64,000 bases of DNA from a virus, in the IMG/VR virus record IMGVR_UViG_3300032242_000468, positions 55,274 to 119,273 of that record. One strand, written 5' to 3'. Each line of letters opens with the position of its first letter. Positions within the stretch are counted from its first letter, which is position 1. A program made the translations under genes and the position numbers. This document shows, in pieces, positions 7,232 through 41,200 of this stretch. The notes below the pieces were generated by a model. The model was not told where the DNA came from. It saw only the letters and a list, made by a program, of their open reading frames with translations, and searched no databases.

Positions 7232-10200
7232 TTAAACGTATAAGTTTCCAGATAGTGATCCAAGTTTAGTAGTTTGAGTCTTGTTCTCATCGAGAGTGGC
7301 TTTCATATACTTGACTAGATCAGCAGTTTGTTTATTTAACGTCTGCATCTCCTTTAACATATTTTCATTTGCGGCCGGAACCGCAGTTTGAGCATCTGAT
7401 TTTTCTTTTTTATCACCTAGTCCAAACAGATTTTTAAAATCATCCCCCATAGTTTTGTCAAACATATCTTTCAATGCTTTAGGATCTTTAATCGCTTCGT
7501 CTGCTTTTTTGCCAAGATCACCTACACTGGGTAATTTATTCATAAATCCGGGTAGTAATGTATCTGTTAGAGATTTAAACATGTCTGGTTGCATTTGTGT
7601 TCTACCAGACTGCTCCATTGAGATTTTATCTCGTAATGCAGTAGGGTCTTGCATTTTGTCATCCATCATTAAAGATTTTGGAATAGGAGGTAAATCTTTA
7701 AATTTTTTGTTCATTTCATCTAATACTGCCTGAGAAGCCAATTGAGGATCTTTAGTTCCCGGCTGTGGTTGCATCTTAGGCATAAAATCACTTTGGAATA
7801 CTTTGCTAAACGATACAAGTGTTTCTTTGGATAGTGTAATATCCTGCTTTTGATTTTGTGATCCTATCATATCATCAGTTAGCCCTTTGAAGTTGCCGCT
7901 GAGATTCTTTGTCATGTCCTGCATGTGAGATTTCATATCCGGACCTTTATCTTTACCCAAATTCTTCATAGCAGAATTAGATAGTATATCTCCTGCCTGT
8001 TTAGAAAAGAATATCTCAGGACCGTTTTCACCTACTAGATACGGGGTATTAGCATCAGTAGGACCTCCTCCTGCTTTCTTTCCGATTTCTTTTCCTTTGT
8101 TCTCTTTCTCTTCCATTTCTTTACGAACAGCAGATTCAGTTGGTGCCGACATTTTATCGCCTATTGTTTTTCCTAACAGCCCGCCTAACACAACTCCACC
8201 AGCACCGCCAAGCCAAACCCCAATTTCTGAACCTATACTAGCACCTAATATTGTACCTACCGGACCTGCTAATGAACCAATTATGCCGCCTGCCCAGGCA
8301 CCAGCAACACCACCTCCGACTGCTCCACCGACTGCTCCAGCACCTGCTCCGACTGCCATTCCTGCCGCATTTCCTGCTACAGTACCTTGATTAGACTTAT
8401 CTTTTACTTCTTGCTCTTTTACTTTTGCCATTTTGGCATCTACTTCGCCGCTATTTTTTAGTGTGTCTTGTTCTTTTTGTAATTTTGCTTTCTTTTCTTC
8501 ATTAAGTTTACCTTCAGCATCTAAAAGATTTAGAGCCGAATTTTTAACATCAATAGAGGCTTGTTCTTTTTTTCTTATTTCTTCGTATTGCTCTTTGGTA
8601 ATTTTTCCTGCTTTTAATTGTTCATTGGCATTATCTATTGCTTCTTTAGATGCTTTAACTTGTTGAGCAGTTTTTTCTTGTTCGGCTTTATTACCGTCTA
8701 ATGATAAAGCAAGATTTCTTTTTTCTGCATCAACTGACAGGCGTGTCTGTTCTGCCTTTGCATCATATGCTTCTTTTTGTGCATCTAGTTGTGCTCTTTC
8801 TTTTGCGGCATCCTTATCATCGTACATGATTTTAGGAAGAATTGCTTTTTTAATTTCAATTAACATCAACTTTAGGTAATAGGTAATGTCATTAATGATC
8901 TTCTTTTGACCATCTTCTGAAAATAAATCTTTTGCAAAGTTTGTAATAAATGTTGCAAATTTGGTTATTGCTTCCTTAATTGCAGGCATGTTAGATTTAA
9001 CAAATCCCATAAACTCGTTTGCTAAATCGTTTACTATAGGAGTTAACATTGCTATTGCTGGTTGCAGAGCTCCGTATATTGAAGCACCCATATCTTTAAA
9101 TGCTTTCTCTGATTCAGCCGCATTAGCGGCGGCGGATCGTTCTCTTGCTTCTTGTTCTTTACCAATTCTTTCTCTAAGAGCCATTTCTTTTTCAGCAGAT
9201 GTAGCACCTTGCTTGTCAAGTTCATTAGCATGTTTAGCCATAGTTGTAGCGGCTTCCGATAGAGCTCCCCCTCCTTGCGCAAGTGCATACGTCATCTGCG
9301 GACCCATCTCTTTACCTGCTTTACCTACAGTTTGACTAACATTTGTTAGACCTTTGTTAACATCTTTCATGCCTTTACTATTATCGTGGACATCGTTAAC
9401 AACACCGCCTAGTGCTTTATCAAATCCGTTAACTGTTGCTGTCAAAGCCTGTGCTTGTTCTGATATAGGAGGCATTCCTAAGAACTTGGCTTTAAATGCA
9501 TCAGCACCAGCCTTACCGTATTTGGCCTGCATCTCAGCAAGTGCAGCCGCGGCTTTTTTCTTTTCTTCTTCTGTCTTGCCGGCAAGTGCCATTTGGTAAG
9601 CGGCATCCTGCGATGCTTCTTTCTGTTGCTTTTCTAATTCTTCTCTGCTCTGCCCAGTCATCTCTGCTAGTGCATCTAATTGTTTTAGATATTCGCCAGC
9701 ACCTTGAGACAGTGCTTTTGTGTCTTTCATTTCTTGTGCACTACGTCCACCAGTGGCTTCTATATAATTTGCTAGACCGTCGTTGACTTCTTGAGTAGTA
9801 AATCCAAGTGCACGAAGATCTGCACCCATCTGACTGTTTCGTAAATCTTTTGATAGTTTGACAAAATTTTGAGCACCTTCTTCAACATCACCGCCCATTC
9901 TGTGTAGCGCATTAGAATTCTTTGTAACAAACCCAGCAAACTCATCTAAGGTCATACCTAAGTCAAGAGCGGTTTGACGTATTGTGTTTAACTGTCCGCC
10001 AAAGTTAACTCCGGCTTTGGTCATAGTTCTATAGGTATCTAGTTCTGCTTGTTGCATTTTGGCTATCTTTTCAAACAGTCCTGCAACTAATCCTAGGCCT
10101 AATGGTAAATCTTTTAGTGCCCCGTAGAAATCACTTATCTTTCCTTGACCGTCCATCATGGAACCGGCTAAATCAGTTAAGTTACTAGCAGTTTTAACTG

Positions 10201-10528
10201 CTCCTCCGATCAAATCTCCAAGCACTCCACCAAGGAACATTGCGCCCTTGGCCAATCTGCTCATGGACTCAGTAGCATGTTCTGTGGCTACAGTTTCTTC
10301 TTTTGTAGCCTGTGTTTGATCTTTTGTAGCCTTTGTCTCTTGTTGCAGGGCTTGTGTTTGTGCGTTATTGCCACCGCCACCTCCCCCACCTCCTAGACTA
10401 CCTTTTAAACTTGATATTACAGCAGTCTGCTTATTAAGAGCGGCCAGCATGGCCCTTAACGTGGCTTCTGTTGCCGCATTATTCAGTTCTACCGGTTCAC
10501 TACCTATTGTACCCGTTACGTCAGCCAT
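7232..10528 (-). CDS. Tail tape measure protein (gp29-like role)
   Basis: The 1098-residue protein has a poly-Gly stretch near residue 50, long helical and coiled-coil parts, a Gly-rich hydrophobic stretch at about 710-785 with repeated GAxxG motifs, and the motif YLVGENGPEIF near residue 831, which is typical of tape measure proteins across tailed phages. It sets tail length and is thought to leave the tube and help DNA cross the inner membrane; the hydrophobic Gly-zipper-like part fits this. In T4 the tape measure (gp29) lies in another operon, so its place directly before the portal is a rearrangement. The gene is divergent from the gp26-like gene, with late-type boxes between them. Confidence 0.85.
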   Translation of the reverse strand: MADVTGTIGSEPVELNNAATEATLRAMLAALNKQTAVISSLKGSLGGGGGGGGNNAQTQALQQETKATKDQTQATKEETVATEHATESMSRLAKGAMFLGGVLGDLIGGAVKTASNLTDLAGSMMDGQGKISDFYGALKDLPLGLGLVAGLFEKIAKMQQAELDTYRTMTKAGVNFGGQLNTIRQTALDLGMTLDEFAGFVTKNSNALHRMGGDVEEGAQNFVKLSKDLRNSQMGADLRALGFTTQEVNDGLANYIEATGGRSAQEMKDTKALSQGAGEYLKQLDALAEMTGQSREELEKQQKEASQDAAYQMALAGKTEEEKKKAAAALAEMQAKYGKAGADAFKAKFLGMPPISEQAQALTATVNGFDKALGGVVNDVHDNSKGMKDVNKGLTNVSQTVGKAGKEMGPQMTYALAQGGGALSEAATTMAKHANELDKQGATSAEKEMALRERIGKEQEARERSAAANAAESEKAFKDMGASIYGALQPAIAMLTPIVNDLANEFMGFVKSNMPAIKEAITKFATFITNFAKDLFSEDGQKKIINDITYYLKLMLIEIKKAILPKIMYDDKDAAKERAQLDAQKEAYDAKAEQTRLSVDAEKRNLALSLDGNKAEQEKTAQQVKASKEAIDNANEQLKAGKITKEQYEEIRKKEQASIDVKNSALNLLDAEGKLNEEKKAKLQKEQDTLKNSGEVDAKMAKVKEQEVKDKSNQGTVAGNAAGMAVGAGAGAVGGAVGGGVAGAWAGGIIGSLAGPVGTILGASIGSEIGVWLGGAGGVVLGGLLGKTIGDKMSAPTESAVRKEMEEKENKGKEIGKKAGGGPTDANTPYLVGENGPEIFFSKQAGDILSNSAMKNLGKDKGPDMKSHMQDMTKNLSGNFKGLTDDMIGSQNQKQDITLSKETLVSFSKVFQSDFMPKMQPQPGTKDPQLASQAVLDEMNKKFKDLPPIPKSLMMDDKMQDPTALRDKISMEQSGRTQMQPDMFKSLTDTLLPGFMNKLPSVGDLGKKADEAIKDPKALKDMFDKTMGDDFKNLFGLGDKKEKSDAQTAVPAANENMLKEMQTLNKQTADLVKYMKATLDENKTQTTKLGSLSGNLYV

Positions 10529-10601: not shown

Positions 10602-11471
10602 ATGGTTCCTCAACCAAAAGTAAATCAAAATCCTCTAGCAGGATTCATGCGTCAGCCCAAAATTTATATCAAACTTCCCAGCGGAGGTGAGTTTTGGCCA
10701 GCAGGCAGTCTAGACAAGACTGAAAACGGAGAGTATCCTGTTTACTCTATGACTGCAAAGGATGAACTGATGCTTAAGGTTCCTGATGCTCTAATGAACG
10801 GACAGGCAGTTATTAGTGTTATCGAGCACTGCATTCCTAACATCAAGAATGCTTGGCAAACACCAAATTTAGATCTAGATGTTATCTTAATTGCAATCCG
10901 CATTGCTACTTACGGTGATACTATGACTATTCCGGTAAGGCTACAGAAAGGCGAAGAATTTGATTATAATCTAAACCTTAATACCTTAATGGATACTCTT
11001 ATGAATCAGGTTACTTGGCAAACTGCAATTCCTGTAAGTCCCGACCTTACCGTTCATGTACGTCCAATCAACTATAAACAAATGACTGATAGTGCTCTTA
11101 AAACTTTTGAAACACAGAAAATATTTGATGCAGTGAACAATCAAGATCTACCAGTTGACGAAAAAGCCAAAGTGTTTAACGAAAGTTTTGAAAAATTAAA
11201 TCAAATTACAATAGGAATTGTAAACAATTCTGTGTTTGCCATTGAGTCATCAGCAGGAACTACAGATAATCCTGTGCATCTAAAAGAGTTTATGGAAAAT
11301 TCAGATAAAGAAATTTTTGATACAGTTAAAAAGTATATCGAAACTCTAAGAGAAAATAACACTATTAAACCTTTAAAGGTACAGACTACTGAACAGATGC
11401 GTGAATCAGGTGTTGTTGAAGATGAAGTTGAAATTCCGTTAATCTTTGACGCTAGTTATTTTTTCGCATAA
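10602..11471 (+). CDS. Baseplate hub/tail assembly protein (T4 gp26-like)
   Basis: The 289-residue protein starts MVPQPKVNQNPLAGFMRQPK and contains the segments YIKLPSGGEFWPAGS and YPVYSMTAKDELMLK that I associate with T4-type baseplate hub proteins of the gp26/gp51 group. A GGAG site lies 8 bases before the ATG. The last codons carry a slippery TTTTTTC, and the -1 frame continues without a stop into the next small gene, as in tail assembly chaperone pairs of other phages. Its neighbour on the other side is the tape measure gene, which also fits a tail chaperone. Which of the two roles applies is open. Confidence 0.75.
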   Translation: MVPQPKVNQNPLAGFMRQPKIYIKLPSGGEFWPAGSLDKTENGEYPVYSMTAKDELMLKVPDALMNGQAVISVIEHCIPNIKNAWQTPNLDLDVILIAIRIATYGDTMTIPVRLQKGEEFDYNLNLNTLMDTLMNQVTWQTAIPVSPDLTVHVRPINYKQMTDSALKTFETQKIFDAVNNQDLPVDEKAKVFNESFEKLNQITIGIVNNSVFAIESSAGTTDNPVHLKEFMENSDKEIFDTVKKYIETLRENNTIKPLKVQTTEQMRESGVVEDEVEIPLIFDASYFFA

Positions 11472-11503
11472 GGCTTTTGTCAATGACTATGGAAGACATA
11501 GTC
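11459..11503 (+). promoter_or_regulatory. Candidate -1 frameshift site with downstream hairpin
   Basis: In the reading frame of the gp26-like gene, T TTT TTC (11459-11465) fits the X XXY YYZ slippery pattern. It lies two codons before the stop, counting the stop. A -1 slip reads CGC ATA AGG CTT TTG with no stop, straight into the small downstream frame. A perfect 7-bp stem, GACTATG and CATAGTC, with a 5-base loop lies at 11485-11503, covering the second possible ATG. The gap from slip site to stem (19 bases) is longer than usual for a stimulator. Confidence 0.45.
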
Positions 11504-11695
11504 GAACTCGTTCAGCGCATGGAAGTTGAGACAAAAGCCATCAAACAAGAACTCTATAAATTCTGTTGGTACATGCGAGGTAGTCTATCATTTACCGAAG
11601 CCTATGATCTAGAAATAGGCGATAGAGAAATACTGGGAAAAATAATAGAAGACAACTTAGACACAACTAAGAAATCTGGACTTCCGTTCTTTTAA
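11483..11695 (+). CDS. Small baseplate/tail assembly partner protein
   Basis: The 70-residue protein is helical and charged, with WYMRGSLSFTEAYDL and the C-terminal TTKKSGLPFF. Start choice is uncertain. I chose the ATG at 11483 because AAGG lies 9 bases upstream; a TTG at 11477 and an ATG at 11489 are also possible. It may also be made only as a C-terminal extension of the gp26-like protein by a -1 frameshift. It ends tail to tail with the next minus-strand gene, sharing a TTAA of stop codons. Confidence 0.7.
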   Translation: MTMEDIVELVQRMEVETKAIKQELYKFCWYMRGSLSFTEAYDLEIGDREILGKIIEDNLDTTKKSGLPFF

Positions 11696-12894
11696 ATCAT
11701 TCCTCTTAGGAATCTACTGTAGTATTGGATTCCCTCTTTTGCATATTCTTGGTTAGAATCAAACTTACTTGCGGCTCGTGCTTTTTGACTTGCCGCAAGA
11801 TTGGATCTTAGTTTAGCCGTTTGATCTTGGCTAGATGTAGTAGGATTAGTAGTATTTGGAACAACATTAACTGCTTTAGAATTTAATGGCTTAGACACAT
11901 TTTTCATCGTGTTAGGATCAAAGCGTGTAGTAACACCGTAATTAGCCTTACCGTTACCAATTTGATTATTATAACTTCCGCCTGCTCGTTGAAGTGGAAT
12001 CATTTTTCCTGTTTCATCATCATACGTTCCACCTGCATCTTGATGTGCTTTCATTTCTGCGTCAGTATAATTAGGATTTCTTTTAGATTTTTGTTGTGTA
12101 GGGGCCGGTAAAGATAGAGGATTAGTAGTTGACTTTGTCTTAGGTTCAACATCTGTAACATCTGCGTTAGGTTTAGCAGATGTAGATTGTTTATTATTTG
12201 GGTTGTTAGGGTCGGCTTTGTGAACTAGGCCTGTTGATGTTTGATTTATTTGTCCGTTTGTGCTTGACGGAGTGCTTACATTATCAGCAGGAGTCTCTGG
12301 AGCCGATGCTTGCTGAGTTTGATTTGGTTGAGCCTGAGATGCTTGCTGAGTTTGATTTGGTTGAGCCTGAGATGCTTGCTGAGTTTGATTTGGTTGAGCC
12401 TGAGATGCTTGCTGAGTTTGATTTGGTTGAGCCTGAGATGCTTGCTGACCAGAAGTAGCGTTTCCTGTGCTTTGGTTAGGTTGCGTTGTCTGTTGAGAAG
12501 GTGCTGATTGAGAAGTCTGTTTTTGTTGGCGCTCAATTTCGTCTGCTCTTGCCATTAAATCTCTAGCCTGTTTTCTCAAGGTAGCAGGATCTTCTGCACT
12601 CTGTCCTGCTACAGCCTGTGCTTGACCTGCCGCTGATTGTTGTCCTGAGGGTTGATATTGAGTACCGCCTTGTTGTGGTGTCTCATCAGGACCTCCAGCA
12701 ATAGTATCAGATGCTCTGTTATATCCTTTTTTAATAGATCGAGCAATACCTGCTGGTACACCTGCTACTGCACCTATTCCTTGTCCTACTGCTCCAATAC
12801 CTTTACCTATAGCGGCACCTACCTGTCGAGTTTTATCCCATATAGGTCCTTCTTCTAGATCAAAATCTTCAGATATAACTTCATGTAGCCTCAT
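11692..12894 (-). CDS. Repeat-bearing protein, possible internal head protein
   Basis: The 400-residue protein starts MRLHEVISEDFDLEEG, a short amphipathic leader ending in LEE before G, which fits the T4 gp21 cut rule and resembles capsid targeting leaders of T4 internal proteins. Residues about 20-60 are Gly/Ala/Ile-rich. Residues about 75-230 are low-complexity Gln/Ser/Ala/Pro, including four exact 33-bp repeats encoding an 11-residue unit. The C-terminal third is polar and basic. It has its own perfect late box TATAAATA 21 bases upstream. No known domain is seen. The internal protein role is inferred from leader, promoter and composition only. Confidence 0.6.
   Translation of the reverse strand: MRLHEVISEDFDLEEGPIWDKTRQVGAAIGKGIGAVGQGIGAVAGVPAGIARSIKKGYNRASDTIAGGPDETPQQGGTQYQPSGQQSAAGQAQAVAGQSAEDPATLRKQARDLMARADEIERQQKQTSQSAPSQQTTQPNQSTGNATSGQQASQAQPNQTQQASQAQPNQTQQASQAQPNQTQQASQAQPNQTQQASAPETPADNVSTPSSTNGQINQTSTGLVHKADPNNPNNKQSTSAKPNADVTDVEPKTKSTTNPLSLPAPTQQKSKRNPNYTDAEMKAHQDAGGTYDDETGKMIPLQRAGGSYNNQIGNGKANYGVTTRFDPNTMKNVSKPLNSKAVNVVPNTTNPTTSSQDQTAKLRSNLAASQKARAASKFDSNQEYAKEGIQYYSRFLRGMI
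12305..12448 (-). repeat. Tandem 33-bp repeat, four exact copies plus a part
   Basis: Four identical 33-bp units start at 12305, 12338, 12371 and 12404, followed by the first 12 bases of a fifth. The unit is in frame and encodes an 11-residue Gln/Ala/Ser/Pro/Asn/Thr motif. Perfect identity, including third codon positions, suggests recent copying by slippage or recombination. Confidence 0.95.
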
Positions 12895-28800: not shown

Positions 28801-29288
28801 CTAGTTCTTCATTAGAAGAAAATTATAGTTTGGTTCTTGAACCTATTAAATCTATTAGCGATCAATTGATTTATCAGTCAGTAAAGTATAAACCCTTATT
28901 TGGCCCACAAGCACCTTTAAATCTACAGGCAGTATTTAGAGTGGTAAAAAATAATTCGTTAAGTATTTCAGATAACGATATAAAAATAAAAGTTATAAGA
29001 GGCATAACTGATTTCTTTAAATTAGATAATTGGGATTTTGGCCAGACTTTTTATTTTAGTGAATTATCTACATATATCATGAATTTGTTAACCCCTTATA
29101 TTACTAATTTTATTATTGTGCCAAAATCAGATATACCATTCGGCAGTCTTTACGAAATTGCCTGTCAGACAAATGAGATATTTGTTAGTTGTGCAACTGT
29201 TAATGATATTGAAATAATAGAAGCCATAACAGCATCACAAATCAAGACAACAGCAACAATAGTAACCAGTTCTGTAGGAGTGTATTAA
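25848..29288 (+). CDS. 6: Baseplate wedge protein gp6
   Basis: The 1146-residue protein has the gp6/gpJ-like N terminus: FETLRRTMIQYLRENYPEDF, SSEYVALIDLIAYLGQNLSF and RVDLNARENFLETAQRRDSI. gp6 forms the ring that holds the wedges and triggers sheath contraction. T4 gp6 has 660 residues, so this form is almost twice as long; the added part is beta-rich. It starts after a 51-base gap with a late-type box and its stop overlaps the start of the giant gene (TAATG). Confidence 0.92.
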   Translation: MIPSTNSKLLVAEDWTKIYQSFNNSDFKSYDFETLRRTMIQYLRENYPEDFNDYIDSSEYVALIDLIAYLGQNLSFRVDLNARENFLETAQRRDSILRLAQLINYNPSRSVPASGLLKITSISTTDNVFDSAGINLANTSISWNDSTNVNWYSQFLSVLNSAMPANSTFGKPYDKSLIAGIPTERYQISSALNDVPIFGFSKSINGIPTSFEVVGATFANKNYIYESTPIPNANFDFLFRNDTRGNSSPNTGFFAFFKQGSLSSNQFAVDVPVQNEIVGVNVTNINESDVWLWQLDSNGNYNTLWTKVDAITGNNVIYNNVSNSERNIYAVSTRIQDQIDLNFADGAFGNLPKGNFVLYYRQSNGLSYAISPDQINGIQIKLPYYNKSGQKNILSLTLSLQYTVDNAAGSETDANIKLKAPQAYYTQNRMVTAEDYNISPLTAGTDILKVKSVNRISSGISKYYELNDISGKYSSVNIFANDGTIYKNNIIQQFNFTFNGRNDIYAILVNKIAPILQSNDLKHFYYDQYRRSSNYSSLIGGSKIIPTNVSWKMLTSTTNQTTGYFQNTLTSTPLPTGYFSSIELKYAITGALIKFTPPAGKFFLPNGKLTSLYDNTTRDYFWSSLVLTIGDGYNSGIGTLTDGTGPITLTNYVASGAVVSEIIPPIVTSLTPALQSEILNLCVGYRNFGLRFSRDDNSWYVINDTDLNVNSPFSLIYQGDTTNTNRDASWIFSFMWTGIDYEVKYRYVEYLFESVQETSFNYDNTAKKYDFVSNTIIKDIITVLKINDKGISPYSLGVDYLWQLDNNIIEADGYIEPKKVKISFYDSQDDGKIDDPDSFDLIVQPDSINAQTNYNYQFVYFQSSSDGLRYSIVDPSMFIAYPNETSIPSLLLREGQLYYLYDSAVNVVVRYSKFTPTPFTLQPQYFAKIGRRDLKFHYQHNSADDRRLDPSKTNLIDIYMLTGSYDTVYRSWLASGTGSEPMPPTSSSLEENYSLVLEPIKSISDQLIYQSVKYKPLFGPQAPLNLQAVFRVVKNNSLSISDNDIKIKVIRGITDFFKLDNWDFGQTFYFSELSTYIMNLLTPYITNFIIVPKSDIPFGSLYEIACQTNEIFVSCATVNDIEIIEAITASQIKTTATIVTSSVGVY

Positions 29289-32200
29289 TGCCCGCTAATG
29301 TTTCAAAGGTATCATATTTAGGAAGTACTTCAACAAATAGAAGAACTATTGATTTATTACCTACTATTTTTAAAACAGATAGAAATGCCAAATTCCTAGC
29401 AGGCACAATTGATCAATACTTAGAACCGGCTAAAGTTGAAAGAGTTAATGGATGGGTAGGGACTAAAAATACTCCTACATATAATCCATCTACTGACAAT
29501 TATATTCCTACCAATTCACCTTTAAGATCTGCATATCAGGTTGAGCCTGCTCTCATTGTAAATGATGCTAATTTAAAGCCCCAAGAAACATTGGCTTATG
29601 ACGACTTAATTAATCAATTAAAATTTAACGGTGCTAATGTTTCAAATTTAGGTAAACTTTTTAATCCTGAATTTTATTCTTATAATCCAAATATAAATTG
29701 GGACAAATTAGTTAACTTTGAAAAATATTATTGGATGCCTTACGGCCCTGATGTTGTAACGGTCACTGGTCAATTAAAAAATACTATTAGCAGTTATACG
29801 GTTAGTGATGCTAACGGTAATTTTTTGTTTACTCCTGATGGTTTAACTGAAGCACCCCAGTTAACACTTTATAGAGGTGTTACTTATATTTTTAACATTA
29901 GAAGTACAAAAAAATTCTGGATTAAAACACAACGTGTTGCAGGTACTGATTCGCCTTTCCGTGTTATAACAACTAACGGAATTTCACATGGTCAAATTAT
30001 TTTCACTGTAGACGAAAACACACCTAAAAAATTATTTTATGTTGCCGAAGACAATGTGTTAAATGGCGGCGAGATCGTTATTGAGTCTATAGAAGATAAT
30101 AGCAATTTAAATGTTGTAAATGATATTATTGGTAAATCAACCTTTACATCAGGAAACGGAGTTATATTTTCTAATGGTATGCGTGTTTCTTTTGCCGGAA
30201 ATATTACCCCTGCAGAATATCAAACTGGTGAGTATTTTGTTGAAGGTGTGGGATCTGAAATTAAATTAATAAATGCGGCATCTCTAGAAGTTCCCGAACA
30301 ATTTATCAGCAATTTAGATGATAATTTTGACGGTGCTCCGTTTGACGATTATCCTTTTGATACTTTTATTAATGCTCCATTAACTCCGGAATATGTTACT
30401 ATTGATCGATCAAGCATTGATAGAAATCCCTGGACTAGATACAATAGATGGTTTCACGAAGATGTAATTATTTCTTCTGCAACATATAATAACAGAACTC
30501 CGGTATTGCCAGTAGAGTTGAGAGCAAAGAGACCTATTGTAGAATTTCTTCCTAATTTACAATTATTTAATTTTGGTTCTTTAGCAGTTGAAAATGTGCA
30601 ACATCTTGATAGTACTACAACTGATGTCTTTAATTCTATAGAAGGATCGGAAGGTTTTTATGTAGATGGAGTGGAACTGGCCAACGGTGATAGAATCATT
30701 TTTACAGCAAACACTGACAACTATGTTAATCGACGAGTTTGGATTGTTAATTTTGTACAGGTAGATGGTAAATTAAAAATTGCATTAGTTGAAGATACAG
30801 AACTTTCTATAGGTACTAATGTTGTTATTACTCAAGGAGCTAAACACAAGGGGTCTAGTTGGTGGTTTGATGGAATACAATGGGTATATGCTCAACAAAA
30901 GATTGTGTTAAATCAAGCACCTAGATTTGATGTATTTGATAGCGAAGGTTACGGATTAAGTGACACAGCAAAATATCAAAGTAATTTTACAGGAACAAAA
31001 ATATTTGGGTACGGAATTGGTACCGGCGTTAGTGATAGTATTTTAGGTTTTCCTTTAAAGTATCAAAGTGTTGCTGATCAAGCATTTTATCTATTTGAAA
31101 ATTATTTTACTCAAGATCAAATCACAGTTGTTAATGGGAATCAAACTTCTTATATTTCGTTATCTACAAATTATTTGAAGAAAAATAGTGCAACAGGATA
31201 TAGTTATATAAACATATGGGAAGAATCTCAATCATATACAACTCCTATATTACAATCAGTAGTTCCTACTTCTCCTGCAACTGTTTTAGAAATAACATGT
31301 GTTGATTTTCCGGCTTATCAAAGCCTAACACTAGAAGTATATCGTAATAATATTAAACTTTTTGAAAATATTGATTATACTAGATATGTAGATACCTCTA
31401 GATTGTTTGTACTGTTTACAAAATCTATTCAAACTACTGATCATATTTTATTCAAAGTTTATGGAAATGCTGTTCCTAATAGCAACGGGTTTTATGAAAT
31501 ATCTCCTGGATGGCTAAACAATCCAATGAATGGTGATATTCAAGAATTTACACTATCTGAACTAACTGACCATTTTAAATCAATGGCAGATCGTAATCCT
31601 AAATTTACAGGAAATTATCTAGGATCTAATAACAGTAGAGATCTAATTAATTTTGCCTCTTATGGTACTCGTCTTATAAAAAATAAAAATCCATTAGCAT
31701 TTGCAGGATATTTTATTACTGACCAAACACACAATGTTATATCTGCTGTCACTACTGTAGAACGTCACTATAATCAATTCAAATTAGGATTTATATCACA
31801 AGCAACTGCTTTAAAAGGAATCTATAAACCCTCTAAGGCTGTTGATATAATTCTTCATAATATGAATTTGGCTAAGAATCCGTCGTCCCAATATTATCAT
31901 TCAGATATGTTGGCTTACGGGCCTGATGTAATTTCGAATACTATTACAGTTACAGATTCTCGTAACACTATGTACGGATTGAATTCTACATATGTTTCCG
32001 GAGTTAATAATCCTAGATCAGTTATTGTTTACCATGTTCCGGCATCAACTGGACTAGAATATCAATTATTTTACGGGCATGATTATATATTTGATCAGTA
32101 CGACCCAACAGTTGTAATTACAAAACCGTTGGTCAAGGGAGATAAAATAATTATTTGCGACTATCCTAGTACTGATGGTAGTTTTATTCCTCCTACACCT

Positions 32201-35200
32201 ACTAAATTAGGTCTATATCCTAAATTTACTCCTGCAATTTATTATGATGATTCGTATTCAGGAGATCCTAAACTAGTAATTAGAGGTCACGACGGCAGTA
32301 TCTCTTTAGCATTTAATGATTATCGAGATCAGATAATATTAGAGTTAGAAACTAGAATTTACAATAATATTAAAGTTAATTATAATCCAGAACTTATAAA
32401 CATTCACTCTGTAACTCCTGGGCGTTTTAGAACAACTAAAATAGTAAAGACTACAGTTAATAATATTTTAAGAAGTCAATTCTTAAAATGGAATAATTTT
32501 TATGGATTTGATTATGAGTTAAATGACACTTATTCTGATGATCCTAAAACATGGAATTTTATAACAGCAAATGACCCTGCAACTAAAATACCGCTGTATG
32601 GAAACCATAGAGGAATTTATTCTTATTATTTTGATACAACTACTCCCCATCTAACTCCGTGGGAAATGTTAGGATTTAGTGAAATGCCTGCATGGTGGAT
32701 TGATACCTACGGCCCTGCTCCATATACCAGCGGAAATTTAATTCTATGGGATGACCTTGAAAAGGGTTACGTCAGAGATCCTATGAATTCTCGTATAAAT
32801 CCTTTATACGTAAGAACAGGGTTATCTAAAATTATTCCAGTAGATGAATACGGCAATTTGTTAGATCCTGCTGCCTCTAACATAGCACAAAATGTAAATC
32901 CTAATTCAATTAATTTAAATTGGAAATTTGGTGATCAAGGACCTGTTGAAACAGCATGGCGTAGAAGTAGTCACTATCCATTTAGTATTCAAATATTAAT
33001 GGCTTTAAGTAATCCTGCCAATTATGCTAGTTTGATGTTTGATACCAGTAGAATAAGTATAAATCCTGCATCACAGTATGTTTATAGTGAAACTAATAAT
33101 TTTTTAAAATTATCTGATCTAGTAATCTATGGTGATACTATTAATGGTTCTATTGTAAGAGCAACAGGTTATTCTGCTATGCTTGTAGAAACAGGAAAAA
33201 TTAAAAGTCTAACTTATATTGCTGACTTAAAAACTTATCTATCTAATATGACAATGCAATTGTTGACCAAGGTAGGTGGATTTGTCAGCAAAGATAAATT
33301 AGAAATAATAATTGATTCTATTAATCCGGCCAGTGTTAATCCTGGAGTTGCATTAAGTAACGAAGACTATCAAATTTTCTTAAATCAAAGTAGTGTTGTA
33401 GATAGTATAGGTGTATCTGGAATTATAATACAAAAAACAGATACGGGATATATTTTACGAGGGTACGATAATACTGAACCTTATTTTACATCTTTTACTC
33501 CTATACCCGGGGGAGCAATTACTATTGGCGGGGCAAGTGAACCTTTTGTCAAATGGGCGGCAAGTAGTCCTACTGATTCGGGTCTTACACCCGGAGAACT
33601 ATCAACAGCAGTAACGGCTAACACAGGATACATATTTTATAAAGCAGGACAAGTAGTATATTATAACGGTCGTTATTATAGAGCAAAAGTTGGTCATACC
33701 AGCGGTTCTACATTTAATATAAATTATTTCCAACCATTACCGGCTCTGCCGCACATAGGCGGTATTTCTGTAAATACTCCTGTTAAATTTGATACAACTC
33801 CTGTTGTGACACCTTATGGTGTTACATTTTCAACTTACCAAGAAGTTTACGACTTGATTGTAGGTTACGGTTCTTGGTTAGAAAGTCAAGGTGTAATTTT
33901 TGACGAATACAATTCTGATCTAAATGATATCATGAATTGGAACTACACCGGAAAAGAATTTTTATATTGGGCCAGTCAAGGTTGGTCTTCTAATAGTATA
34001 ATAACGTTAAGTCCTTTTGCTAATAGTTTACAGTATCAAAATTCTACAGCAATGGTTGACGATCTAGGAAATACAGCCTATGAATATAGTGTCTTAAAAG
34101 CAGATGGGAAACCATTACCGATCCATAACCTAAATGCAATAAGACAGGACGGTACAATAAGTGTATCAACTAGAAATACAAATGATGGAATTTATTTTAT
34201 TAGATTTAATAGTGTTCAAAAAGAACATAATCTTATTTTTAATAATACCAGTTTGTTTAACGACATAATTTACAATGTAGAAACTGGATATAGTCAACGT
34301 AGATTAAAATTAAATGGTCTTAGAACTTCTCAATGGGACGGTAGTTTATATAGTCCTGGATTTATCTATGACGAAGCAATGGTTGACAATTGGACTGAAT
34401 ATACAGATTACCATCCCGGCGATGTAGTTTTGTATTCTGGTAATTATTATTCTGCAATTAAAAAACTAACTGGAGTTAGTTCATTTAATTTTAATGATTG
34501 GCAATTATTAGACAAAAAACCTACGGCCCAATTGTTACCTAATTTTGATTATAAAATTAATCAATTCCAGGATTTCTATAGTCTTGATATTGATAACTTT
34601 GATTCCAATCAACAGGCATTAGCCCAGCACTTAATTGGTTATACACCTAGACCATATCTTGATAATATCTTTGCCAATCCAGTTAGCCAATATAAATTTT
34701 ATCAAGGATTTATTAGAGAAAAAGGCACACGTAATTCAATTACTAAACTAGCAAAGGCTAGTAAACAAACACTTGATAGTTATATAGATTATTATGAAGA
34801 GTGGGCATTCAGAGTAGGAGAATTTGGATCATTTGATACTGATTATAGTATAGAATTAAATTTGGATGAAACAAAATTTGAACAAAATCCTCAAATAATT
34901 GAATTTATTCCAACTGCATTTGCCAGTTCTGCATTCCAAACTCGTATCTATCAAACCCCGTCAGACCTAATAATTAAACCTAACAATTATAATAGCCGAC
35001 CTTTTGATACTACATCAACAGTATATTCTGATGTATTCAAATTACCGTATGCAGGATATGTTAGATTAAATGATGTAACTGCAACAGCCTTTAATAAAGC
35101 AACATTAACCAATATATCTAATAGTAGAGGATTATCTGATGGAGATACTATATGGATAGGATTTACAGAAAATCTTGGCTGGGATGTTTATAGGCATACA

Positions 35201-38200
35201 AAATTACCAGCAGTTGTTGTTGATGCATCTATTGTTGTGCAAGGATCATCTCTCTTAATTACAACAGATTCCACACACAATTTAAAAGTAAATGATTATA
35301 TTAATATAACACAATTTGATAATACTATCAATGGAATTTATCAAGTTCAAAAAATTGTATCTAATACACAATTTATTGTTAAGTCAATACTTACAACTTT
35401 GCCCACTGCATTTTTTCCAGGTATAGGAATCCTATTTAAATTTGTATCAGTTAGATTTGAGTTTATAGATGATATTGCTAATCACCCATTAATAAACTCT
35501 CTCGGGTACGGTGAAAAACTATGGATTGATAATGACGGCTCAGGTAGGTGGCTTGTTTTAGAAAAACAACAACCATATAATATTTCTTCATATCAGCCTA
35601 CATCAATAGAAATTGGGTCTAGCATTAATTCTAGATTTTCAGAGCGTATTATCATAGATTCTACTGGTGAAAAAATTATTGTCAGTGCTCCAAATTATCA
35701 AAATACTTTTACAGGAATTGATGGGCTAGTCTATGCGTTACGTAAGAATGGCACAGGTACTAATTCTATTGTAAATGTATCTGAAATTAAATTAAATATT
35801 GACAAAATTGGGACTTACTATAGCACAACCAGTTCGTCTGGATTTGGTAAAGCAGTGGCGTTTGATGCCGATAACGATATTATAATAGCAAGTGCACCAT
35901 ATGCTAGCGGAGTAAAATACACTACAAGTACCTCAACATTCTATAGTGTAACAATCAATGCCGCAACAGGAACTTATGTTAACCAAGGTTTAGTTAAATG
36001 GGAAACTATAAATTATGATTACGAAAGAGTAACAAATAATTTTGTTATTACTAGCCCTGAGCCTCAAAGTAATGCTTATTTCGGTTATGATCTATATTTA
36101 GGAAATATATCTCCTAGTGAAAAATTACTGGCGGTCACTAGCCCTGGTCAAAATTCTAATGCAGGTGCAGTTTATTGGTCGAGATATTCTGTTACCACTA
36201 CAAATACAGTAGTATATATTAATACAATTACTAACACACAACATAAATTAGATCCAATAGAACAACAACCTGTGTCTGGCGATCAATTTGGGTATGCTAT
36301 ATCTGGAGATCTAAAAGGAAATAACTTAGCAGTAAGTGCTCCTGGGTTAACTGACGGGTCTGGCGGAGTTTATATTTTTACCTATGAACCTATTAATTCT
36401 AGATTTACAAATACACAACTCATAAGAGCAATCGATTTAGGAGTTACCTATACCGGTGTAGGTTTTGGTAATTCAATATTGATTGATAACACAGGCAGAT
36501 TTTTGTTTATAAGCGCATCTGGTTCTTTAGATACAGATTACAAGGTTGGAAAAGTGTTTGTATTTTCACGTGTTTACAATGAGTTTGTTTACAGCCAAAC
36601 ACTAGTATGTCCTTTTGATAATTCCGGATTTTTCTTTGGATCAAATTTATCAATTTCGCCTAATGGTAAATCTTTATATATTTCTAGTAGTCAAGCATCG
36701 ACTCAACCAGATATTACATTTGAAAAATATAGTAATACCTATAAATCTTCTTATATAAATGATCCTAATAGTACGCCTACAGTAACTCCTACAACGTTTG
36801 ACGGGAAAACAACAAAATTTAAATCTAAGAGTATTATTGGGAATGGCTCAGTTTATGAATTTGAAAGATTAGACAACAAATTTTACTTTGCTCACGAAGT
36901 TAAAAATCCTAAACCTACATCCTATCAAAATTTTGGATCTAGTATAGCGGCTTCTAATTTTTGCGCCCTTATTGGATCTCCAGGGCAAGTAAATCAAACT
37001 GAATCTGTTGGTTATTTTAATATCTACGACCATTCAAACCTTACATGGAATATACTAAGGCAAGAAGATAATCTTATAAATCTTACTAAAGTTAAAACTG
37101 CAAAAACAATCGATACTACTCAACAGACTATAGTAGACTATCTTGAAATTTATGATCCGTTAAAAGGTCGTATTCCGGCACTGGCTGATCAAGAAATCAA
37201 ATACAAAACAGCATTTGATCCTGCGGTTTATTCTATTGGTGTCCCTGGTGTAACTGTAGATACCAATACAAATTGGTTAGACGAACATGTTGGAGAGTTA
37301 TGGTGGGATCTTAACTCAGTAAAATATGTTTGGTATGAACAAGGCGAATTAGATTTTAGAAATAATTCTTGGGGTAATTTATTCCCTGGTTGCACGATCG
37401 ATGTTTATGAATGGGTGTCTAGTACAAATATGCCTAATCAGTGGAGTGCAATTGCAGATACTAATGCAGGGCTTGGCCAGAATATAAGCGGACAACCTAA
37501 GTTTCCTTCTAATTCTGTTCTTAGTATTAAACAAGTTTATAATGCCACTACAAATGCTCTAACCAATATATATTATTTCTGGGTTAAGAATAAAATTACT
37601 ATACCACAGGTACCTGGTAGAAGCATGAGTGCATATAATGTCTCTCAACTAATTGCAAATCCTAAATCGCAAGGAATGAAATATGTATCTTTGATTGCCA
37701 ATAATGCGTTATCATTAACAAATATGAAACCTAGTGTTGTAGGAACTACTATCAATCTAAACATTGATATGGACTCTACTAATAATGTAGGTAATAAACA
37801 TACAGAATGGTTGTTAGTACAAGAAGGCAATTCCAGTAGTCAATTTAATAATTCCTTAATCCAAAAATTCAAAGATAGTCTATTAGGAAGAGATAGTTTA
37901 GGTAATCCTGTACCTGATCCTGCACTATCTGATAGATTAAAATATGGCGTAAGTATTCGTCCTAGACAAAGTATTTTTAAAGATAGATTCGCCGCTCTAC
38001 GAACACTCACTGAGTATAGTAATGCAACTTTAAGTACTATTAATTTTGTTGGTATTGACAATATAAATTATTTTACCTCAAGTGAAGCCTATGCCCAACC
38101 TGCCGAAGGTGTTTACGATGTAGTAGTTGATTCTGTAGTAGCACGAGATCAAACTATTATAACAAGAAAATTGGCACAGGCTGTTTTATCAGTCTCACTA

Positions 38201-41200
38201 ACTTATGGAAGAATTACCGGAGTAACTATTACAACCGCAGGATACGGATATGGTAAACTTTATCCTATAGAGTATGATATAAACGACAATCCAACATTAT
38301 GGATAGGCCCTACAGTAGAAATTATAGGTGATGGTGTAGATGCTAAAATCATTACTTTTGTAAACACTGTGGGACAAATTGTTCGTACTAAAATAAAGAA
38401 TCCTGGAAAAAATTATACATCTGCTCCTGCGGTTATTGTAAGACCTTTTACAGTTTTAGTTCAGTCTGACGAAACTGTTAATAATCGTTGGAGTTACTAT
38501 ACATGGGATTATACAAATAAAGTTTATTCAAGAATCAAAACCCAAAGTTGGAATACCCCAGAATACTGGTCGTATATTGATTGGAAAGATCCAACATACA
38601 ATAAAAATCAAGATATTAGAAGTACAGTTGATAGTATATATGAACTAGCATACATAGAAAATGTTAAAGCCGGAACTTACGTTAAAGTTAATAATGCAGG
38701 CGATGGTCGTTACATTATTTTAAGGAAAACAAATGGAACTACAGGAACATTTGATAATCAGTTTGATCTAATTTATCAACAAAATGGAACTATTCAAATT
38801 AGTGACATGATTTGGGATAATCAATTTGGGTTTGATTATCAAATTGGGTTTGATCAATTGAAGTATGATCAAAAGCCTGATATAGAAACTGAAAATATTA
38901 TTAACGGTTTATTAAGTCTTGCTACTCAGGAACATTCTAAGTACACTAATTTACTAATGTTTAAATTGGTCAAATACGCTTTGACAGAACAGAAATTTGT
39001 AGATTGGGCATTCAAAACATCATTTATTACTGTGGTTAATAATGCAGGTGCTCTTGACCAACGTCCTACATATAGACTCAATAATGAGACATATTATGAA
39101 CAATATATCAATGAAACCAAGCCTTATCATACAAAAATTCGTAATTTTCAGGCAAATTATACTGCTACAGATTTTACACAGTCATTGACTACTGATTTTG
39201 ACACACCGGCTGTTTATAATACCTTAACACAGAAATTTGTTCCTGTGCAATTAGGTAATTCATTGATGTTAAAATCACCATGGCGCGAATGGTATAAAAA
39301 TTATACCTATCATGTTGATAGTGTAGAAATTTATAGCGGCGGATCGGGCTATCAATACGCACCTCAAGTAGTGTTTAGCCCGGCGCCCGGCGATAGCGGA
39401 TCGGGCGCCGCCGGTGAGGCTTACATCAGCCAAGGTAAAGTTACTAAAGTTATTATTACAAATCCCGGTTCTGGATATGCGGCTACTCCAATAATGACTT
39501 TACTAGGAGGCGGACCAACAACATTAACTCCAGCAAGATTTGGTATCAGAATGAGTAATGGCCTTGTTCGCTCACAGACAATTACATTAAAATTTGATCG
39601 AGTGTCTGGGTATAATGAAATTAATTCTGCACAAACAGAAGATACATTCCGTGCTAACGGTTATTCGGATACTTATAAACTAACCTGGACTCCTACCCCA
39701 GAAAAATCATTGACTAATATTACTGTTAATGGTATTAAACTTTTGTCTGATGCTTATAGTTTTAATATTGGCACAGAAACATTTAACGGTTATACAAAGA
39801 GTTATGGTGAAGTCAAACTAGTAAATGTTCCTCCATACACGGCAACAGTTGTGGTTAACTATGTTAAAGACATTGGATTATACCATGCAGTAGATCGTAT
39901 TCGTGACTACTATAAACCAGAATCGGGAATGCCTGGTAATACAGCCACAATGTTAATGGCAGGATTAGAATATCCTGGTGTTACTGTAGATACACTTCCT
40001 CTTGTATCATCGACAGGCTATGATTCTACTCCTTATGGATCTAACAATTGGGACGACTACGAAACTGAAACTGGATTGTATCAAACAATTGGTAGTGCAA
40101 ATACATCGGTATATACACTAAACTACGTTCCGCAGATTGGTAATACATTAACTGTTTATGTCAATAATATTAGAATATATGGGACTAGCACGTACACTAC
40201 ATCAAGTAATTTAGAACTTGTCAATGGTATAATTCAGCCAGATGGTTATACAAATACAATTAATATTCATCAATTAACTCCAGATGGTTCGATTGGTCCT
40301 ATTGAGATTGACCGAGAAGCAATAGTTACATCTGAAGAGTTAGGAGGCCCGTATGAAAGAATTTCCTTTAATATACCGGCAAACACTGCTACCAATCAAA
40401 TTACCACAAGCGGATGGTTATGTTACATTGATGGAATTACAACTCCATTTAATGTCACTTCTATCAGTACTGGTAGTCCGAGGATTGTTATATTAAACTC
40501 GGGAACAGAATTTATATTAAATTTTCCTGTTAAATTTTATTTGCCAGGAACTCCGCAAATAGTTGATTTTAGGCTTGCAACTAGCGACGGTTCGATACCA
40601 ATTGTAGATCCTGACTTAGATACTTATATTTCTGGAGGACAAGAATTTACAACTAAAGTAACTTCTGGAGTTGCAGATAATCCATCTCCATTATTAGACG
40701 ATATAATCATAGATGGTGATAATCTGGTATCAAGATATAATAGTTATGGCCCTGAAGAAAACTTGCCAGGTAGGGTATCTGAAAGTTTAGGTATTAGTGT
40801 TTATACCCAACCGTCAACTGGCTCTGCACTAAGTGTACTTAGAACTTATATAGCAGATCCTGCTACAAAAACTTATTCTTTAGGAACAACTCCTCCAAAT
40901 GCAGATTCAGTTGAAGTGCTATGCAACAATAATATTATTACTGGGTATTCTATAAATTATATTAATCAAACAATAACACTAACCACAGGAACTTCTGGAT
41001 TGTTATCTGTAAAAACATTAGGAGTTGGTGGTACAAACATATTAGATAAACGTGTTATTATTGCTACAACCAGTACATCGATTATCGATATGGCTCCTCG
41101 ATTAGTTGATGTACATGACCAGTACATTACGCTAAATGGTGTAAAATTAGTAAAGGGTACAGATTTTGTATTATCTGCTGTTAATCTTAGAACGAGAGTT

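Follow-up and report, generated by a model that had tools for sequence, protein, structure and literature searches.

We analysed a 64 kb stretch of DNA (hereafter the window) from a viral record of 119,273 bases, possibly itself a fragment, and found that it very probably carries a T4-type tail assembly chaperone locus with a −1 frameshift of the lambda G/GT type. A gp26-like gene ends in a slippery heptamer, followed by an open −1 frame under selection and by a covarying RNA stem; these three elements are read directly from the sequence and its relatives, and we have high confidence that the frameshift signal they form is real. The window also encodes T4-type proteins, namely a gp20 portal, a gp23-type major head protein, gp46/47-type nuclease subunits and a late sigma factor, and its source is an uncultured giant T4-type phage. 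A tRNA scan of the window found none.

Table 1. Features of the proposed frameshift locus and its neighbour (window coordinates).
Feature	Position	Strand	Basis
Divergent neighbour, 1098 aa, probable tape measure protein	7232..10528	-	weak phrog_1538 match and synteny
gp26-like protein, 289 aa, short form, proposed TAC-N (gpG analogue)	10602..11471	+	phrog_150 profile match
−1 extension, 78 codons from heptamer plus stop, proposed C-terminal part of TAC-NC (gpT analogue)	11459..11695	+	selection, relatives
Slippery heptamer T TTT TTC, 0-frame slippery phase	11459..11465	+	37/37 aligned relatives invariant
6-nt spacer GCATAA including the 0-frame stop TAA (11469-11471)	11466..11471	+	sequence
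5′ arm GGCTTTTGTC of the proposed 10-bp stimulatory stem	11472..11481	+	fold, covariation, synonymous shuffles
3′ arm GACAAAAGCC of the proposed stimulatory stem	11530..11539	+	fold, covariation, frozen Ala GCC
Inner 7-bp hairpin (11485-11491 with 11497-11503), clade-specific	11485..11503	+	fold, wider alignment

The short protein belongs to the family of T4 gp26 and gp51, as shown by a profile search against phrog_150 (baseplate hub; E=5e-12). Pfam PF12322 (T4_baseplate) gave no direct match to the window protein; it does match its homologues in Atu_ph07 (2e-28) and 121Q (3e-24). The AlphaFold model of the protein resembles T4-like baseplate hub assembly proteins (E=1.5e-20). Foldseek comparison of this model with annotated tail assembly chaperones yielded weak matches, the first at E=0.23 and the others worse, and no fold match in the PDB; a PDB sequence search with the profiles of both gp26 and the extension returned no match either. 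The divergent neighbour is probably a tape measure protein, as suggested by a weak match to phrog_1538 (E=0.003) and by synteny, 33 of 35 relatives having a long ORF upstream of gp26 that is divergent from it.

The 0 frame of the gp26-like gene ends as TAT TTT TTC GCA TAA and hence contains, as the first-pass annotation had noticed, an in-frame T TTT TTC close to its end. This heptamer is not rare in the AT-rich window (20 occurrences against 28 expected), so the window alone could not decide, and the case rests on relatives. These were retrieved from viral contigs with the extension as query (61 loci) and, independently, with gp26 alone (80 loci, 79 usable). The gp26 relative left out (L148, 608-1459) is broken by an early in-frame stop, and is either a sequencing error or a decayed copy. 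All 79 usable gp26-retrieved loci have the in-frame heptamer. Clustering at 85% nucleotide identity, with annotated phages included, gave 92 clusters, all of which conserve the site as TTT TT[C/T]: it reads TTT TTC in 90 and TTT TTT in 2, and the preceding codon is NNT in every one. By comparison, TTC makes up 28% (297/1062) of the other Phe codons in these genes. The probability of this conservation under codon usage is log10 P ~ -62 and -28 with lineages taken naively as independent, figures that shared ancestry shrinks, although not enough to matter.

Downstream of the heptamer the RNA is predicted to fold at -29 kcal/mol (z=-5.0), with a main helix of GGCTTTTGTC and GACAAAAGCC that starts 6 nt 3′ of the heptamer. 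We propose this 10-bp stem as the main stimulatory element. In most gp26-retrieved relatives the stem is 10-18 bp long. Covariation was assessed in 37 gp26-retrieved sequences, including the window, picked without reference to structure. In this set 89% of the cells of the outer helix (16 pairs) are paired, and compensatory changes occur in 31 cells versus 16.9 in shuffles, none of 500 shuffles reaching as high. Compensatory double changes affect 4 of the 10 core pairs, mostly columns 22-73 and 23-72 (19 sequence cells). Compensated arm pairs among relatives include GGCTTTTGTATCTT/AAGATACAAAAGCC, GGCTTTTGAATCTT/AAGATTCAAAAGCC and GGCTTTTGGTTCT/AGAATCAAAAGCC, and the isolated phage Atu_ph07 has GGCTCTTTGT/ACAAAGAGCC.

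The structure also exceeds what the encoded protein imposes. Against synonymous-codon shuffles, which preserve the −1 frame protein, the window stem has a z of -5.0, and gp26-retrieved relatives a mean z of -4.5 (41 of 41 below -2) compared with -0.75 in a control region; for extension-retrieved relatives the mean z is -2.65. Codon choice within the arms is frozen: Arg is AGG and Ala is GCC in 37 of 37 sequences each, whereas further downstream AGG accounts for 6 of 112 Arg codons and GCC for 7 of 41 Ala codons. In other subclades the 5′ arm holds its position and its 3′ partner lies at different distances, and for this reason RNAalifold found no consensus structure when all subclades were pooled (63-nt or 88-nt region), while it did obtain one for the 88-nt region of a single clade. 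RaK2-like isolates show little excess structure.

Two other candidate stimulators were rejected. The 7-bp hairpin to which the first-pass annotation had drawn attention does exist, with perfect arms (GACTATG at 11485-11491, CATAGTC at 11497-11503), but it begins ~20 nt past the heptamer, inside the loop of the larger stem, which had been missed; with 32% of cells paired across relatives, and intact in the closest relatives alone, it is not a general stimulator. A Shine-Dalgarno-like stimulator upstream of the heptamer is present in just 6 of 92 clusters.

Heptamer and stem together bear on the possibility that it is the RNA polymerase that slips on the T6 run, producing mRNAs with one extra U that encode the fusion by ordinary translation. 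Indeed, a homopolymer run is present, a one-base insertion yields the same frame, and RNA hairpins can stimulate polymerase slippage too (PMC5009743). However, the site keeps strictly to T TTT TTC in phase with the codons, the run is not longer in most relatives, and the stem lies 5-6 nt past the heptamer, which is the classical ribosomal arrangement. Moreover, six T are a short run for polymerase slippage. We consider this mechanism very unlikely.

The −1 frame begins FFRIRLLSMTMED... and is stop-free until the TAA at 11693-11695, so that no stop separates the heptamer from the 70-residue frame pointed out in the first-pass annotation, namely the 70 of the 78 extension codons that run from ATG 11483 onward. 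The predicted fusion has 364 residues (286 + 78), in line with the roughly 360 anticipated, and adds a 76-residue tail. In 79 of 79 gp26-retrieved loci the −1 frame is open for at least 190 nt beyond the 0-frame stop. Its pN/pS is 0.47, while the other two frames give 0.98 and 1.33, pointing to purifying selection limited to the −1 frame among the three. Directly after the heptamer, and upstream of any ATG, the peptide FFR.RLL is conserved, with FFR invariant; it stays conserved among relatives in which the 0-frame stop lies 3, 5, 6, 8, 12 or 13 codons from the heptamer. This conservation argues that translation of the −1 frame sets in at the heptamer. Alignment of relatives, the check put forward by the first-pass annotation, thus came out in its favour, with a conserved heptamer, an open and selected −1 frame and a frozen synonymous choice. 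The extension is predicted to be helical (mean pLDDT 90). Profile comparison relates it to the RaK2-type extension (97.9%) and detected no relation to the cyanophage/Straboviridae extension (8.5% probability).

The same data weigh on whether the small frame could instead be expressed as an independent gene beginning at ATG 11483, the T run being incidental. Deposited annotations of relatives do give the small ORF as a gene of its own, and the AAGG that the first-pass annotation had reported is found 9 nt before this ATG in the window. Among relatives the start does not hold up: of 92 clusters, 4 have the ATG at that position, 6 have some start accompanied by a Shine-Dalgarno-like 4-mer, and 17 lack ATG, GTG and TTG throughout the first 20 codons. 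A separate gene would also leave the invariant heptamer unexplained. Since the start is not conserved and FFR.RLL is conserved before it, we dismiss an independent gene as a general explanation and give it a smaller chance still than polymerase slippage. Lastly, a chance T run beside a chance open frame in AT-rich DNA, a caveat of the first-pass annotation for which it can be said that one more TTTTTTC is unremarkable among 20 occurring below expectation, is refuted by conservation and has a practically negligible probability given the invariance of the heptamer over 92 diverged clusters, the frame-specific purifying selection and the covarying RNA structure.

We therefore return to ribosomal frameshifting, for which we propose the following course. 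Most ribosomes would end at the TAA and release the short, 289-residue gp26-like protein. Some would stall at the 10-bp RNA stem starting 6 nt past U UUU UUC, where two Phe-tRNAs would slip back one base, and translation in the −1 frame would then give the 364-residue fusion. If the division of labour follows lambda gpG/gpGT, the tape measure protein would be coated by the short form, and the rarer long form would use its helical extension to recruit subunits of the tail tube. The fusion product, the slippage rate and the chaperone role are inferred from the lambda analogy. In systems of the lambda G/GT type, a low level of fusion is made in vivo, the short form binds the tape measure, the long form binds the tube protein, and both are absent from the virion. 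The window shares with lambda a short protein with a predicted −1 extension and a slippery site near the end of the short gene, and its adjoining gene is tape measure-like by a weak match and by synteny. It differs in its slippery site (U UUU UUC instead of G GGA AAG), in its covarying downstream stem, and in gene order, the window gene being divergent from the tape measure gene while lambda has V-G-T-H; the searches made revealed no sequence relation between the lambda and window proteins. A 2016 review describes low-level G-T frameshifting as widely conserved in long-tailed phages, with T4 excepted (PMC5009743).

The arrangement recurs in isolated phages. Among isolated jumbo phages, T TTT TTC followed by a −1 extension is found in Atu_ph07, Phosso, XaC1, RaK2, PA5oct, 121Q, Vibrio 2.275.O, GAP32, CBB, Munch, Hallingskeid and SCTP-2, and T TTT TTT with a −1 extension in XacN1 and RAS14. 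T TTT TTC with an open −1 frame is also found in the cyanophages S-SM1 and S-RIM8 and in the Straboviridae phiAS5, VH7D and LPCS28. Marzo has T TTT TTC and RHph_I1_9 T TTT TTG; in phiM12 the site is T TTT TTT and the −1 frame is likewise open past it. In isolated phages the extensions are annotated as separate genes or left unannotated. Where annotated in cyanophages and Straboviridae, the 'gp51 baseplate hub assembly catalyst' gene is the −1 frame past gp26. These gp26 and 'gp51' pairs resemble the window in heptamer and −1 frame, and differ in having a shorter extension without similarity to that of the window detectable by profile comparison. This shorter extension belongs to phrog_634 ('baseplate hub assembly catalyst'), a family to which T4 gp51 also shows a match, at its C-terminus.

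Relatives that keep both frames without the T run, the observation that according to the first-pass annotation would speak against frameshifting, were limited to SP-15, an unusual Bacillus phage, and a distant pair of Ackermannviridae-like phages. In this pair, CRW-SP2 (L164, 3316) and D495 (L166, 3172), the −1 extension is kept, the heptamer is absent and an ATG overlaps the stop (TAATG), which suggests stop-restart translation in place of the shift. The gp26 homologue of SP-15 (L158/L169; L158 2477-3217) lies between the tail tube and tape measure genes, as in the lambda order. The small ORF that follows it uses the +1 (or -2) frame, which is uninterrupted between -122 and +199 nt relative to the stop; a -2 or +1 shift is possible. 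When the heptamer was located by a search for TTTTTT[CT] among 117 distinct junctions, SP-15 (L158) alone was without it.

The heptamer shift appears, from this distribution, to be conserved across most of the T4-superfamily branches sampled and to be ancient, T4 itself being without it. T4 gp26 and gp51 are paralogues (L156, 2803-3429 and 3480-4229), both matching PF12322 and phrog_150. T4 gp51 consists of the gp26 domain with a C-terminal extension in frame, and the T4 gp26 gene ends in TTC TTT and lacks the heptamer. T4 thus has short and long forms from two genes, whereas the window would obtain them from one gene and a shift. On the simplest reading, T4 would have swapped the shift for a duplicated, in-frame long form. 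More broadly, we lean, with some reserve, towards the U UUU UUC shift and its long-range stem being ancestral to the whole T4 superfamily (that is, jumbo phages, cyanophages and most Straboviridae), which would make coliphage T4 a derived exception that arose through gene duplication and in-frame fusion (26, 51).

The first-pass annotation knew of no such device in T4-type gp26 genes; this has been overtaken, as T4-like tail assembly chaperones were identified by Vladimirov, Gautam and Davidson in 2022 (Virology 566:9), who are credited with it in two later papers (PMC10885494, PMC12846349). According to these papers, some T4-like phages have one short and one long chaperone gene (PMC10885494), and poly-T −1 signals in T4-like chaperone genes are credited to the 2022 study (PMC12846349). 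Part of the present findings may already have been reported there. The title of that study reportedly proposes a mechanism other than frameshifting for T4-like chaperones. In Vandenendeviridae/Andersonviridae (phage Adele), the short form is likewise described as ending in a poly-T slippery site, with an open −1 frame that is conserved; the Adele motif, GTTTTT, is unlike that of the window, and the passages on it mention no conserved downstream stem (PMC12846349). Our literature search, with subscription papers mostly outside its scope, found no description of a downstream stem or of a jumbo-phage shift.

If the proposed mechanism holds, cyanophage gp51 'catalyst' genes and the small hypothetical genes of jumbo phages become the second half of one protein, and their annotations are to be joined. 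In addition, it becomes possible to test directly whether gp26 and gp51 act as the short and the long chaperone, and the covarying stem offers a natural panel of bacterial −1 stimulators.

Two further observations concern the window outside the locus. A perfect 33-bp tandem repeat (4.4 copies, 100% identity) occupies 12305-12448, within a minus-strand ORF of 400 residues (11692-12894) whose protein repeats are Gln/Ser/Pro-rich, and is either a recent expansion or an assembly feature. Further downstream, a single ORF of 4491 residues spans 29288-42763.
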